Positions 2,660-49,333 of a stretch of 64,000 nucleotides of DNA are shown here, piece after piece. How positions within the stretch are numbered: position 1 is the first letter of the stretch; every line of letters begins with the position of its first letter. Origin of the DNA: Chloroflexota bacterium (GTDB taxonomy: Bacteria; Chloroflexota; Anaerolineae; Anaerolineales; Anaerolineaceae); assembly GCA_029548365.1 (NCBI GenBank), contig JAKPNN010000019.1, positions 1 through 64,000 of the forward strand, read 5' to 3'. Under the pieces are notes generated by a model, which made no database searches, was not told where the DNA came from, and was given only the letters and a program-made list of their open reading frames with translations. The position numbers and the translations under genes are program-made.

Positions 2660-3601
2660 TCAGGGAGTCTGCCTGGGTTTTAGCCATGGCCAGCGTTCTT
2701 CCGGTGTGAGCTCCGTTTCAAGGGGCGTGTTCGTTTCAGGTTCAAGCTGCACGGGTGCGATAAACATTGCCGCAGGCGCTGAAGGCGCAGCTCCCAGGTT
2801 GCTATTCATCCCGGCCTGGATGCGCTGGTATTCCGTTGAACGGGCATAATCCCTCAGCGTATTGATACGGCGGATGAGCATCGGGTGCGTTTGGAAAACC
2901 TCTGCCAGGCGGTTAGATACCGGGTCGTCTTCAGCATCGATCATGGCCAGGGCGCTCTCAAAATCGGCTTGCGTGCGGATTTTTGGCGCGGCCAGCTTGA
3001 CCAGCGCCGAAATTGCGGTGTGGATATCACCGCAAGCCAGCAGGCCCGCCCGATCGGCTGAAAATTCGCACATGCGATTCCACCACCGAAAGGCGGTGTA
3101 CAAGATCACCGCGGCACCAAAGGGGGCAGGAATACCCGCCATGCCGCCGATGATCGTGTTCAGCCAGGTGTGTCCCAACACCACGTGGCCCATCTCGTGT
3201 CCGATGATGAATTTAAGCTCATCGACCGTCATTGCTTTGACCAAAGGGGTGAACAAAACCAGTACCTTGGGGCTGCTGATCCCGAATGTGTAGGCATTTA
3301 CCTGCTTTTGATTGACCACAAACACATCCACCTGTCCGGGCTGCAGTTTTACCCCGCATTCTGCGACCAGGTTTGCCAGTTCGGGCGTGCGAGCACGATC
3401 AACACGCAACGCGTGCTGCATTAATGATTGATGGTGCGAATGGATCATCACAGCGCTGATCAAGAACATCCCCAGGATAAAGACCGCACTCAGGCAAATT
3501 GTGGCTGTGGCGGTCAGGATGATCACGCCCAGAACCAGCAGGATCGTCAGGATAAGGACGACCTGTTCGTTTTCATAGCGATAGGCGCGGGTTTTAAACA
3601 C
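2660..3601 (-). CDS. M48 family zinc metalloprotease, HtpX/Ste24-like
   Basis: A membrane-anchored zinc endopeptidase of 313 residues, likely in membrane protein quality control. Two hydrophobic segments occupy residues ~13-53. The zinc site HEMGH is at residues 135-139, and the third ligand lies in the CEFSADRAG segment near E179, the usual M48 ExxxD arrangement. Another hydrophobic stretch lies between them. The start is GTG at 3601, with AGAGGAA upstream. It begins 8 nt after the pyrFE stop codon, so it is most likely the last gene of the pyr operon. The C-terminal ~45 residues are proline-rich and unlike the core family. Confidence 0.85.
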   Translation of the reverse strand: MFKTRAYRYENEQVVLILTILLVLGVIILTATATICLSAVFILGMFLISAVMIHSHHQSLMQHALRVDRARTPELANLVAECGVKLQPGQVDVFVVNQKQVNAYTFGISSPKVLVLFTPLVKAMTVDELKFIIGHEMGHVVLGHTWLNTIIGGMAGIPAPFGAAVILYTAFRWWNRMCEFSADRAGLLACGDIHTAISALVKLAAPKIRTQADFESALAMIDAEDDPVSNRLAEVFQTHPMLIRRINTLRDYARSTEYQRIQAGMNSNLGAAPSAPAAMFIAPVQLEPETNTPLETELTPEERWPWLKPRQTP

Positions 3602-3609
3602 GGTTCCTC

Positions 3610-5049
3610 TCAGCCTGAAGCGCCTGTTTCCTGCAGGAAAGCGCGCACGCTGGCAATTTGATTGGCGGGCAGGCGTTGAGTCTCATCCCAGTGATCTAAA
3701 AGTTGCGAGAGGGTCAATAATGCGTGCATCCGGTAGCCGGCTTCTGCCAGGGCTTCCCTGGCCCCGGATTCGCGGTCGATCAGGACCACCACATCACGTA
3801 CGTTCAAGCCCGCCTCTGCCAGTTTCTCGATCGCCTCAAATTTGCTTCCCCCGGTTGTGGCCAGGTCGTCGATGACCACAACTGTTTCACCAGGATGGTA
3901 GATGCCCTCAATCGCCACGCCAGTACCGTAATCTTTAACATCTTTGCGGGGATAGATCAACGGGTAATTGCCCTGCAGGCTGATGGCTGTTGCGATCGGC
4001 AGGGCGGCATAGGGCAGACCTGCGATTCGGTCAAATTCCAGTTGAGACAATTGCTGAATATACACAGCAGCCACCTGGGTCATCCAGCCCGGGAAGGTCA
4101 CCAAACGCCGCAAATCAATATAGATCGGTGAAACCAGCCCCGACTTGAGGGTAAATTCGCCAAATTGGATGCAGCCCATCGAAAGCAGGCCCTCCACCAG
4201 TGAGGCGATCAGAGGGGGAGTTTGGCTTTCCCTGGCAGGCAGAGGCTGATTGATTTCCAGTTGCGCTTCGCGAAAACTTTCAACCAGCGCCCGTGCAGCC
4301 TGCCTCGGATCCTGCGCGCGGGAGATGCTGCGGCTGACATTGATCAATAAGCCCAGCCCATCGGCTCGCAAGCCGGCTCGCATCGCCTCCTTCAGATCTG
4401 CGCCCTGCGCGCCCAAACCCGGCGAGAGGATCCATTGATCCGGTGCAAACTGGCGCACCCGCTGTAATGCCTCGGGGAAGGTAGCGCCCACCACCAGCCC
4501 CAGGCAGCAATTGGCGCCCCATTCATGTGCTAAACCGGCTACTTTTTCGTACACGGTCATCAAACGGTAGTGACCGCCCAGAGGCAGGTCCTGCAGGTCA
4601 ACTGAGCCGGGATTGCTGGTCTTGCACAGCAGGAAAATACCCTTTTCGGGGTCGGTCAGGAATGGCGAGAGAGAATCGTAGCCCATGTAGGGGCTGAGGG
4701 TGATCGCATCTGCACCCAGAACTTCGAAGGCCGAGCGGGCATAGGCCTGGGCTGTCGAAGAGATATCACCCCGCTTGGCATCCAGGATGACGGGGATGCC
4801 CTCGGGCACAGCCTTGATAACCCTATGCAGTGCAGCCCAGCCCTCCGGTCCCAGGACTTCAAAAAAGGCAGCATTGGGTTTAAAAGCCAGGGCGTATTCC
4901 TGGGTGGCGTTGATCAACCGGATACAAAAAGCTTCGGCTGCTTCCGCGGTTTGCTCCGGCAGTTCCTCCGGGTGCGGGTCCAATCCCACGCACAATAAGG
5001 AATCGATGGTTCTGGCGCGCTGGTTGAGTTTTTCAAAAAAAGTAGGCAT
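3610..5049 (-). CDS. pyrFE: Bifunctional orotidine-5'-phosphate decarboxylase / orotate phosphoribosyltransferase
   Basis: This 479-residue protein carries the last two steps of UMP synthesis in one chain. The N-terminal ODCase half (about 1-270) is of the class II type, with the catalytic D90-A-K92-R-G-D95 motif. The C-terminal OPRT half (about 285-479) carries the PRPP-binding loop VVVIDDLATTGG ending near residue 401. The order is decarboxylase first, the reverse of animal UMP synthase. Inverted fusions are known from trypanosomatids, cyanobacteria and some other bacteria. A TTGGAGG ribosome binding site precedes the ATG. It lies downstream of pyrB, with a 109 nt gap that may hold its own promoter. 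Confidence 0.93.
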   Translation of the reverse strand: MPTFFEKLNQRARTIDSLLCVGLDPHPEELPEQTAEAAEAFCIRLINATQEYALAFKPNAAFFEVLGPEGWAALHRVIKAVPEGIPVILDAKRGDISSTAQAYARSAFEVLGADAITLSPYMGYDSLSPFLTDPEKGIFLLCKTSNPGSVDLQDLPLGGHYRLMTVYEKVAGLAHEWGANCCLGLVVGATFPEALQRVRQFAPDQWILSPGLGAQGADLKEAMRAGLRADGLGLLINVSRSISRAQDPRQAARALVESFREAQLEINQPLPARESQTPPLIASLVEGLLSMGCIQFGEFTLKSGLVSPIYIDLRRLVTFPGWMTQVAAVYIQQLSQLEFDRIAGLPYAALPIATAISLQGNYPLIYPRKDVKDYGTGVAIEGIYHPGETVVVIDDLATTGGSKFEAIEKLAEAGLNVRDVVVLIDRESGAREALAEAGYRMHALLTLSQLLDHWDETQRLPANQIASVRAFLQETGASG

Positions 5050-5089
5050 GTTTTTCCTCCAAGGATGCGGTCTGTCGTAACCTTATTGT

Positions 5090-5117
5090 AATATAAAACG
5101 GGCTGAATCACGGACAA
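5090..5117 (-). promoter_or_regulatory. Possible internal promoter for pyrFE-htpX
   Basis: On the minus strand TTGTCC (5112-5117) and TATATT (5090-5095) are spaced by 16 nt, about 40 nt before the pyrFE start. The match is moderate; expression may equally come from the pyrC promoter. Confidence 0.3.
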
Positions 5118-5158
5118 ATGCCGGGGTCGCCGATTTAATACATGCCCGGTGATGTACC

Positions 5159-6151
5159 TTAAGCCTTGCCCAACACCATCGCCAGCAACGCCATGCGGAT
5201 ATACAGACCGTATTCCATCTGGCGGAAGTAAGCCGCGCGCGGGTCAACATCCACAGCCATGTCGATCTCCCACACGCGCGGGAAGGGGTGCATGAGGACC
5301 ATTTTGTTCTTGGCCTGGCGCATTGTTTCAGTGGTAATGACATAACTGCCTTTGAGAGATTCATGCTGGGCAGGATCTTCAAAATATTCCTGTTGCACCC
5401 GGGTGACATAGAGTACATCCGTCTCGGGCAGGACGGACATCAGGTCGGCAAAGCATTCCTGCGGGATGCCCTTGACCGCAATTTCATCCTTAATCTCATC
5501 GGGAACGCACAGGCTCTCCGGCGAAACATAGTTCAGCCTGACGTCATACTGGCTCAATAAGCGCACCAATGAATGTACGGTGCGCCCATATTTAAGATCG
5601 CCCATCATGGTTACGGTCATGCCGTCCACCCGCCCCAGTTCCTCCTGGATCGTGAATAGGTCTAACAGCGCCTGGGTGGGGTGCTCGCCTATGCCATCGC
5701 CCGCATTGATAACCGGTTTCTGGGCATATTTGGCCGCCAGGGCAGAGGAACCGACCTCCGGGTGGCGCAGCACGATCACATCGGCAAAGGCTTCCAGGGT
5801 GCGGATGGTATCGGGAAGGGATTCGCCCTTGGTGACCGAAGAATAGCTGACGTTGTTAATCGGGATCACGCTGCCGCCCAGGCGTTCCATGGCGGAGGTA
5901 AAAGACGATGAAGTACGTGTGGAGGGCTGATAAAATAGATTCGCCAGGATTTTCCCCTTCAACAGGTCAAAAGAGCCCACCCGGGAGACCATTTCATACA
6001 TCTCGTGAGCCACCTCAAAAATATAGGTCAACTGCTCACGGTCAAACTGCTTGACCGTGATGATGTCAGTGCCATAAAACGGCGAGTCTTGCATATCCCC
6101 AAAGGGTAGGTGCGAGTTTGTTGAAATAAGTCTGGGGGTTAATTTGGGCAT
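5159..6151 (-). CDS. pyrB: Aspartate carbamoyltransferase catalytic chain
   Basis: Condenses carbamoyl phosphate with aspartate, the first committed step of pyrimidine synthesis. The carbamoyl-phosphate loop PSTRTSSSF and the [12 protein letters not shown] motif are present, as are the C-terminal HPFPR and DPRAAYF segments. The frame is open upstream to 6286, but the start at 6151 has a GGAGAAATAGC ribosome binding site and gives 330 residues, close to the ~310 typical for ATCase. No pyrI regulatory chain is visible. It follows pyrC after a 131 nt gap containing degenerate repeat sequence. Confidence 0.93.
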
Positions 6152-33748: not shown

Positions 33749-34579
33749 TTATCGCATGGAGAAGAAGAGGGGCTCACCATATTCTTCAATGCCGTATTTA
33801 TCGATCAGGTCTAACGCTTTACCAGAAGTTATCCACTCGATGAAGGCTAAGGCGCCCGCATGGTTGGTGTCTTCCCAGCGTTCGGGGGTAATGGCAATTA
33901 AAGAATAGGTGTTTTTCATATCCTCGGCTTCTTCCTTCAGCAAGCTGAGGGAATTATCATGCGCAAGGAAGGTGGCTTTGTCGGAAAGGGTGTAAGCCAA
34001 TTCCTCATCTGCGACGGTCAGCGTCTGACCCATGCCAGCGCCTACACTGATATACCAATCCTCTTCCGCCGGGTCAAAGCCGGCATCTTTCCAGATATTT
34101 TTTTCTTTGACATGCGTTCCGCTGTCATCGCCGCGGCTGACAAACTTTGAGCCGCTATTGGCGATCGCTGCGAACGCCTCGGCCGCTGTGGCAGCGTCCT
34201 TGATGCCTGCCGGGTCATCTGCGGGGCCAACGATGACAAAATAGTTGAACATAAATGGCAGGCGCTCTTCACCAAAGCCTTCACCGATAAAATCCTCTTC
34301 AGAAGACTTGGCATGTACCAGCAGACAGTCTGCATCGCCCGTGCGAGCCTTCTCGATGGCGGCACCGGTTCCCGCTGAAGTAATCTCCAGTTTGTAGCCA
34401 GTGTCAGCCTCAAAATGGGGTTGCAGATAGGGCAGCAGACCTGAATCGTTGACTGAGGTCGTCGTGGAGAGACGGATCACAGGATTCTCGATTTCTGCGG
34501 CTGGTGGGGTCTTTGCTGTGCAGGCGATCAAGCCTAACAGCATCAAACAGGTAAAACAAACGATTAAATACTTTCTCAT
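33749..34579 (-). CDS. tupA: Tungstate-binding lipoprotein of an ABC transporter
   Basis: An extracytoplasmic solute-binding lipoprotein of about 276 residues. The signal peptide MRKYLIVCFTCLMLLGLIAC ends in a lipobox with the lipidated Cys. The mature protein opens with RLSTTTSVNDSGLL, the TTTS oxyanion-binding motif of TupA proteins. VHAKSSEEDF and FNYFVIVGPADDP follow, also typical. The start at 34579 has an AAAGGAG ribosome binding site; the frame opens earlier at 34681. A consensus promoter and a structured leader lie upstream. Confidence 0.88.
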   Translation of the reverse strand: MRKYLIVCFTCLMLLGLIACTAKTPPAAEIENPVIRLSTTTSVNDSGLLPYLQPHFEADTGYKLEITSAGTGAAIEKARTGDADCLLVHAKSSEEDFIGEGFGEERLPFMFNYFVIVGPADDPAGIKDAATAAEAFAAIANSGSKFVSRGDDSGTHVKEKNIWKDAGFDPAEEDWYISVGAGMGQTLTVADEELAYTLSDKATFLAHDNSLSLLKEEAEDMKNTYSLIAITPERWEDTNHAGALAFIEWITSGKALDLIDKYGIEEYGEPLFFSMR

Positions 34580-34717
34580 CTTATTCTCCTTTCCTAATAC
34601 GGGAGGCAACGCGGTTTCCCGCGAAACCCTTGAGCTTTTCCGGCATGTTGGGATTTTACCGGCAAGCTGCCGCTCGTACACCCATGGCTATTTCCGAAGG
34701 GTGCCGAGTCGAAGAAC
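34580..34717 (-). promoter_or_regulatory. Structured 5' leader of tupABC, candidate riboswitch
   Basis: The predicted leader of about 138 nt holds several potential helices: CACCC/GGGTG, GAGC/GCTC enclosing CGGCA/TGCCG, and near the 3' end either GGTTTC/GAAACC or CGCGG-GAAA-CCGCG. A GCCTCCCG segment follows and then the ribosome binding site. The two last helices are mutually exclusive. A molybdenum/tungsten-cofactor (Moco/Tuco) riboswitch is an attractive idea at this gene, but I cannot align it to the family consensus by eye. Confidence 0.4.
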
Positions 34718-34723
34718 AAAGGG

Positions 34724-34752
34724 ATTATAAATGATGAAATGGTATCTGTCAA
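34724..34752 (-). promoter_or_regulatory. Consensus promoter of tupABC
   Basis: A perfect TTGACA (34747-34752) and a perfect TATAAT (34724-34729) are spaced by exactly 17 nt on the minus strand. The rest of the spacer up to mogA (34753-34934) shows only degenerate repeat-like sequence. Confidence 0.85.
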
Positions 34753-40410: not shown

Positions 40411-40456
40411 CTTTGATAAGCTTTCACCAACTTATTGTTAAAGGTTGAGTATGGGG

Positions 40457-40486
40457 ATTATAGCTTTAATCGATCTGTAAAGCCAA
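40457..40486 (-). promoter_or_regulatory. Candidate moeA promoter
   Basis: On the minus strand TTGGCT (40481-40486) and a perfect TATAAT (40457-40462) are spaced by 18 nt, giving a ~40 nt leader. It overlaps a weaker plus-strand promoter-like pair (TTGTTA at 40435, TATAGC at 40459). Confidence 0.5.
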
Positions 40487-40624
40487 GGGAGCTTTGTTAC
40501 AAGCCTTTACAGGAACCTGTCACTTCCTCCCTGGCGGGTTTTTGTGATTTGGGGTCTTGTTCTCCTGGGATTGATTGAGGTGGTTAACCCAAAAGCCGCT
40601 CGCACCTCGAGCGGCTTTCTTTTT
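40470..40624 (+). ncRNA. Candidate plus-strand small RNA with intrinsic terminator
   Basis: The segment ends in an 11 bp stem (AAAGCCGCTCG/CGAGCGGCTTT, 40592-40618) and a TTTTT run on the plus strand, although no plus-strand gene lies upstream for over 10 kb. Upstream, CTGTAAAG (40475-40482) pairs with CTTTACAG (40505-40512). CCAAGGGAG (40483-40491) can pair with CTCCCTGG (40527-40534), a crossing, pseudoknot-like arrangement. A weak promoter pair precedes it. There is no credible ribosome binding site or frame. The identity is unknown. Confidence 0.35.
40592..40624 (+). terminator. Strong intrinsic terminator not attached to a gene
   Basis: A perfect 11 bp GC-rich stem with a CACCT loop, followed by CTTTTT on the plus strand. 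On the minus strand only TTTT then GGG follows, so the plus orientation is favoured. Confidence 0.75.
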
Positions 40625-40625
40625 G

Positions 40626-40672
40626 GGCTGTAGCACCCTTATCGAAAACTATCGAGGAGGGGTGCTACAGCC
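40626..40672. other. 13 bp perfect hairpin
   Basis: GGCTGTAGCACCC (40626-40638) and GGGTGCTACAGCC (40660-40672) pair perfectly around a 21 nt loop. On the minus strand the 5' arm lies inside the 19-codon frame described next, whose stop codon is at the loop edge. Confidence 0.8.
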
Positions 40673-40698
40673 GTTGATAAGTAACTACTGTCTATCAT
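40639..40698 (-). CDS. Candidate 19-residue leader-type peptide
   Basis: MIDSSYLSTAVAPLLDSFR is preceded by a perfect AGGAGG (40708-40713) at 9 nt spacing. A TTGACA (40797-40802) with a partial -10 (TAATAC, 40775-40780) lies further upstream on the minus strand. Its codons overlap the 5' arm of the 13 bp hairpin, and the TAA is in the loop, so a terminating ribosome would block that hairpin. This is the arrangement of a regulatory uORF, but the first gene downstream is moeA, about 230 nt away with its own promoter. Confidence 0.35.
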   Translation of the reverse strand: MIDSSYLSTAVAPLLDSFR

Positions 40699-40863
40699 TG
40701 TACACCACCTCCTCTTTAGTGGGATTGCAGATCCTCAACCAGAACCTGCACGGTGCCGGTTGGCGATAAGGAAAGTATTACACAAACAAGCGGGTTTGTC
40801 AATCAAACTGAAGGGGAGTTCGTTCTCCGTGCGGAGTCTTATTAACGCTGATATTGATTCGGG

Positions 40864-40869
40864 TATAAT
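40864..40869 (+). promoter_or_regulatory. Candidate -10 box of the aldo/keto reductase gene
   Basis: A perfect TATAAT lies 34 nt before the ATG at 40903. The -35 is weak. GGAAAGG 7 nt before the ATG is the ribosome binding site. Confidence 0.4.
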
Positions 40870-49180: not shown

Positions 49181-49214
49181 AAAAACACCCTTTCTTCCCG
49201 GAGAGGGTGTTTTT
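49181..49214 (-). terminator. Riboswitch-controlled terminator and ribosome-binding-site sequester
   Basis: A perfect 11 bp stem (AAAAACACCCT/AGGGTGTTTTT) with a 12 nt loop ends directly at the thiN ATG. The 3' arm holds the AAAGGG ribosome binding site, so the hairpin can block both transcription and translation. The upstream CCGGCGGAGGG of the aptamer is complementary to CCCTCTCCGG in the 5' arm and loop, forming a plausible antiterminator. Confidence 0.85.
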
Positions 49215-49227
49215 GGTGTTGATGCAT

Positions 49228-49314
49228 CATCCCTCCGCCGGCATTATCCGGATCAGGTCTTGCGGGTCGAGGACCTGCGTCCTCCTCTCAGCCTGAAGTC
49301 TCAGGCTCCCCGTT
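49228..49314 (-). ncRNA. TPP riboswitch aptamer (THI element)
   Basis: On the minus strand the conserved THI-box blocks occur in order: GGGGAGCC, CTGAGAGGA, GACC, ACCTGATCCGGATAATGCC and GGAGGGA. This is the thiamine diphosphate aptamer. With TPP bound, the downstream terminator forms and thiN-thiB-thiP-thiQ-DUF402 is shut off. Confidence 0.96.
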
Positions 49315-49333
49315 TAATCAATATTCTATAGAA

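Follow-up and report, generated by a model that had tools for sequence, protein, structure and literature searches.

A putative free-standing RNA gene of Anaerolineae with an attenuator-like layout and an internal copy of the 16S rRNA tail

INTRODUCTION

The Sinorhizobium RNA rnTrpL derives from the leader of a biosynthetic gene. It is a terminated, attenuator-like RNA, and its short peptide, peTrpL, possibly acts away from the locus (PMC7298713). Leader-peptide attenuators, such as trp and the ilvB-II uORF of Corynebacterium (PMC10272879), place a short ORF amid mutually exclusive helices with a terminator last, while the uORF candidate motifs odc1 and fthC of Breaker and colleagues (PMC8632094, PMC11109978) combine a conserved ORF with a Shine-Dalgarno sequence (SD) held in a hairpin; in the fthC motif the stop codon lies in the next stem and the third stem is terminator-like. 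In the alpha-proteobacterial small RNA ar14 (RF02344), the loops are rich in CCUCC and resemble an anti-SD.

The element described here, found next to moeA in a member of the Chloroflexota, resembles each of these in part. Unlike the leader-peptide attenuators, it is followed by different genes in different genomes, often on the opposite strand, its terminator stands outside the switching helices, and its ORF holds no codon run for one biosynthetic amino acid. The odc1 and fthC motifs, in contrast, lie upstream of a fixed main ORF and in other phyla, and Chloroflexota are not named in the texts of the two papers; unlike rnTrpL, the element has no biosynthetic operon. Leader-peptide attenuation, SD sequestration and dual-function small RNAs are known in kind; to our knowledge, no free-standing gene that combines them in single copy across a class has been described before. 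A search of openly accessible journal papers found no description of the element.

RESULTS

A putative transcription unit on the minus strand

The window is a 64,000-nt stretch of contig JAKPNN010000019.1 (positions 1 to 64,000, forward strand; assembly GCA_029548365.1) from a bacterium of the Anaerolineaceae. Between moeA and an aldo/keto reductase gene, the original prediction had placed an orphan RNA unit with two strong hairpins, one with a plus-strand T run, and a 19-codon minus-strand frame with a perfect AGGAGG and a stop codon in a hairpin loop. A sequence scan recovered all of these parts, namely a perfect 13-bp hairpin (40626-40638 with 40660-40672), an 11-bp hairpin (40592-40602 with 40608-40618) with its T run, an ATG at 40698 with AGGAGG 9 nt upstream, and a TAA (40641-40639) in the loop of the 13-bp hairpin directly before the 3′ arm. 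Helices of at least 11 bp arose in 2.3% of dinucleotide shuffles of the intergenic segment and those of at least 13 bp in 0 of 300, and the segment folded much better than its shuffles on either strand (z = −5.0 and −5.4). A promoter scan added three promoters that had been missed, two on the minus strand and one on the plus strand. As judged from its sequence, the minus strand from 40802 to 40592 is a free-standing transcription unit with a strong promoter, an SD, a 19-codon ORF, a 13-bp hairpin and a terminator. The features are as follows, with helices named below by the segments that they join.

40842-40869, plus strand: promoter of the aldo/keto reductase gene (promoter scan)
40774-40802, minus strand: promoter of the element, TTGACA, 17 nt, AATACT, with TG before the −10 (extended −10); sigma-70, 10/12
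40720-40728, minus strand: segment 1, GCAATCCCA (consensus fold of 28 relatives)
40702-40714, minus strand: segment 2, extended SD, GAGGAGGTGGTGT
40639-40698, minus strand: short ORF of 19 codons plus TAA, MIDSSYLSTAVAPLLDSFR
40654-40672, minus strand: segment 3, the hairpin 5′ arm (40660-40672) overlapping an internal anti-SD, CACCCCTCCTC (40654-40664)
40626-40638, minus strand: segment 4, the hairpin 3′ arm, straight after the stop codon
40592-40618, minus strand: terminator hairpin with an A-rich stretch before it and a T-rich one after it, apparently bidirectional
40457-40486, minus strand: separate moeA promoter, TTGGCT-18-TATAAT, outside the element (promoter scan)

Promoter-like sites matching at least 9 of 12 consensus positions were found upstream of 78% of 140 relatives versus 11% of shuffles, and a terminator-like hairpin downstream of 85% of them versus 9%. 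The GCNATCC of segment 1 is kept across the class, and the consensus fold of 28 relatives allows segment 1 to pair, around the SD, with the 3′ part of segment 2. Within segment 2, AGGAGGTG is almost invariant among relatives, and deep members carry GGAGGTGAT, which is fully complementary to the 16S 3′ end. On balance, we read the element as a candidate single-copy RNA gene of about 170 nt beside moeA.

A crossing-helix arrangement had also been proposed at 40475-40534. The 8-bp arms (40475-40482 with 40505-40512) are present, while the second helix, CCAAGGGAG/CTCCCTGG as read from the sequence, is bulged rather than perfect, and the arrangement is not conserved: it lies outside the conserved block and is absent from the relative L005, which also has moeA downstream. 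Crossing helices of at least 8 bp arise in 2.5% of dinucleotide shuffles of the segment. The arrangement (40474-40534) sits upstream of the moeA promoter, overlaps its −35 region and is possibly due to chance; the −10 region of this promoter is conserved upstream of moeA in L005.

Conservation in the class Anaerolineae

In a nucleotide search, 40580-40810 was present in 34 of 147 genomes of the family, including 14 of the window's genus besides the window's own, and the conserved block ran from the minus-strand promoter through the SD, ORF and hairpin to the terminator. A first covariance model, built from 28 copies, found the element in 90 of the 147 family genomes (36 of 40 genera) and, across the class Anaerolineae, in 228 of 396 genomes (132 of 222 genera), with carriers that include Anaerolineales, Caldilineaceae and Thermoflexus. 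Each positive genome of the class had one match, with the sole exception of the window's own, in which the second match is the hairpin on the other strand. The proposal of an orphan RNA unit with a genuine short frame was upheld. Plasmid spread was not indicated, as PLSDB gave no match.

At the phylum level, a second covariance model matched 64 of 400 genomes. The 18 outside the class were all weak (E 1e-6 to 1e-3); most of those examined retain an SD, a short ORF, a hairpin and a GC-rich terminator-like stem, mostly with no clear 2:3 pairing. One weak homologue, in the genome L128 of another class (2983-3068, plus strand), points towards a 23S rRNA gene (3427-6001, minus strand) whose end is ∼360 nt away; two matches in L128's genus sit near contig ends. 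A search for the exact SD/anti-SD pattern across 84,980 species yielded 40 loci, 37 of them under Chloroflexota names. The other three, in Nocardiopsis, Neoroseomonas and Kribbella, apparently lie within genes; no further part of the element accompanies them, and they look coincidental.

Within the window's own family, the element was absent from all 14 examined genomes of one genus, g9 (G036-G049), one of them a one-contig genome, so it is not essential everywhere. This genus represents a natural loss while sister genera retain the element, and could reveal its function. Weak matches in g9 and in another genus, g26 (L189, L190), were rejected as they had no such architecture.

Two competing pairings of an internal anti-SD

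Helix 3:4 showed compensatory changes at 13 of 13 pairs among 101 relatives, with 93.5% of cells paired and 206 cells changed on both sides, which none of 500 shuffles equalled; this 101-sequence alignment was fitted to the structure, and an earlier MAFFT alignment of 28 sequences agrees with it. Sliding the partner arm abolished the signal.

Two partners are open to the anti-SD, the SD of the unit itself and the 3′ arm of the hairpin. In deep lineages, anti-SD GCATCACCTCC and SD GGAGGTGATGC share 11 complementary bases. Since the 16S of relatives terminates in GGATCACCTCCTTT, segment 3 reproduces nine bases of this tail, a similarity that arises partly because both are complementary to the same SD. 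The SD:anti-SD duplex had a mean of −21.1 kcal/mol versus −12.0 kcal/mol when shuffled, with p ≤ 0.05 in 92% of elements. Moreover, a variable SD base, A or G, is matched by T or C in the anti-SD (81, 1, 11, 25; p = 5e-16, not corrected for phylogeny), and the G-with-C combination is found in several families. The same variable base pairs also in helix 3:4, so that 2:3 and 3:4 are mutually exclusive.

Folding of the growing transcript predicted an SD that is free at first, hidden once segment 3 is out and free again once segment 4 is out. At fixed cut-offs, all three stages appeared in 90 of 141 elements versus 3 of 71 shuffles, the folding being at equilibrium for each length, of the RNA alone and with nested pairs only. 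Because segment 3, unlike the SD, was not preserved in the shuffles, the result indicates that the switch is built in and does not imply its use. Comparative computation establishes the transcription unit, the ORF, helix 3:4, the 2:3 complementarity and the switch as a predicted one.

Constraint on the short ORF and its peptide

Among 141 distinct elements, the ORF starts with ATG in 139 and GTG in two, 7-12 nt after GGAGG, and is 9-22 codons long. Its stop codon lies −6 to +9 nt from the hairpin 3′ arm in 126 of the 141, versus 12% with the body shuffled, a test that holds the start codon fixed and leaves the relatedness of the sequences uncorrected.

The constant retention of start codon, SD and short frame, together with the likeness of most of the peptides, would fit a micropeptide gene whose product is the peptide itself, of 12-22 residues (M-D-x-S-S-...-A-V-A-S/P-L/P...), with the RNA folds only tuning its expression. 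In 31 disjoint close pairs, second codon positions changed least in the N-terminal part (17, 6 and 20 changes at positions 1, 2 and 3), a mild deficit in the direction expected of such a gene. Against it, changes in the arm and loop part are spread evenly (13, 14 and 17), 33 of 44 being nonsynonymous, and in Thermoflexus (L145), L112 and L116 the anti-SD falls in a different reading frame and the peptides are unrelated. The serine codons of the short ORFs (226 AGT, 62 AGC and 17 TCN) also point to a constraint at the nucleotide level, and we consider the micropeptide explanation unlikely. The peptide itself is, on these comparisons, poorly conserved and weakly constrained; the act of translating and the place of the stop look more conserved than the product.

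TAGT occurs early in the ORF (codons 2-8) in 116 of the 141 elements, with serine nearly always encoded by AGY, mostly AGT; in 100 elements this creates a UAG in the −1 frame. The common serine AGT codons had prompted the idea of a serine-codon sensor, which was rejected, as Thermoflexus has none.

Known RNA families and the small-RNA alternative

In Rfam 15, no family reached its gathering threshold for the element in the window and 15 related loci, and only known RNAs elsewhere were found, so the original statement that the unit matches no known class held. An ar14-like small RNA (RF02344) on the plus strand was rejected, scoring 27 bits against the required 58.8 outside the conserved part and not being conserved. 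A Moco riboswitch at the locus was likewise rejected, the only RF01055 match lying 6 kb away (34726-34570). This aptamer (34570-34726, minus strand, 59.9 bits) shares the strand of the moeA-moaC-moaA run and lies ∼1.1 kb beyond its 3′ end; a TPP riboswitch (RF00059) lies at 49213-49322 (minus strand, 65.7 bits).

A small RNA on the plus strand, as one of the earlier options, is contradicted by the conserved promoter, SD, ORF and terminator, all of them minus-strand features; the T run is consistent with a terminator that works in both directions. On the minus strand, a free-standing unit with a short ORF, as in dual-function small RNAs, is present by sequence criteria. Such a unit with its own promoter and terminator, and with a conserved hairpin whose loop bears anti-SD bases, could belong to a trans-acting small RNA, in which the exposed CCUCC of the loop pairs with the SDs of other mRNAs and the ORF is secondary or regulates the RNA. 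However, the best partner of the anti-SD is the SD of the same RNA, with which it also covaries, and a stop codon set against the hairpin arm is unneeded by a pure antisense RNA; we regard this explanation as unlikely too, and a little more doubtful than a micropeptide gene.

Neighbouring genes and independence from moeA

Of 124 elements whose flanks were long enough to judge, 66 are followed by a gene on the opposite strand and 58 by one on the same strand. The neighbours, named by recognisable sequence, include photolyase, moeA, PFK, HNH endonuclease, ThiL-like and rhodanese-like genes on either strand. With the downstream gene in either orientation, the element is in general no cis leader. 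In the window, moeA is preceded by a separate promoter that lies beyond the terminator; hence the element is not the moeA leader, and the terminator ends the element's own transcript. The earlier suggestion of a uORF-controlled minus-strand leader of moeA therefore falls, as its promoter is downstream of the terminator and the next gene varies between genomes.

As in cis-acting leader-peptide attenuators, a short ORF with an SD lies upstream of alternative helices; a co-directional regulated gene downstream was not found as a rule among the 124 elements, and the terminator is not among the competing helices in the window or relatives, where helix 3:4 and the terminator are separate structures. 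Transcription attenuation of the next gene (moeA in the window, photolyase or another gene in other genomes) is thus highly improbable, for although the architecture is like that of leader-peptide attenuators and a same-strand gene follows closely in most members of the window's genus, that gene is on the opposite strand in more than half of the elements and highly varied in identity, moeA is separately promoted, and the terminator does not overlap segment 4.

DISCUSSION

The reading that we favour, with some reserve, is that this free-standing RNA gene would work like a four-segment attenuator with no downstream gene. With segments 1 and 2 paired, the SD would stay usable; when segment 3, the mimic of the 16S 3′ tail within the short ORF, becomes free, the 2:3 pairing would conceal the SD; and when segment 4 becomes free, 3:4 pairing would remove segment 3 and reopen the SD. 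In the folding model, an own copy of the ribosome's mRNA-recognition tail apparently lets the RNA open and close its own start site.

Because the stop codon adjoins segment 4 on its 5′ side, a ribosome that terminates there would cover segment 4 and also the edge of segment 3, and its release would allow 3:4 to form and the SD to reopen. The fold would therefore be chosen by ribosomes on the short ORF, and the RNA would respond to the capacity for translation initiation and termination. We infer that the element is expressed and that ribosomes drive the switch. Its output would be in trans, through the lifetime of the RNA or through the anti-SD loop meeting other mRNAs; with no fixed gene downstream, a trans effect is the simplest option.

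Tentatively, and with less confidence than in the attenuator-like layout, the RNA of this dedicated gene may monitor free small ribosomal subunits or translation termination and signal in trans, as a class-wide sensor of ribosome capacity with no known counterpart. It would do so with a maximal SD and, inside the same RNA, a copy of the anti-SD tail of the 16S. It is rare for a single-copy RNA gene to be conserved through much of a bacterial class and to have no entry in Rfam, and the maximal SD, the 16S-tail mimic and the positioned stop codon make the element a direct and testable case for a free-standing RNA that senses ribosomes and not a metabolite. Should the output prove to act in trans, the element would tie translation capacity to gene control in these bacteria independently of ppGpp or a protein sensor.
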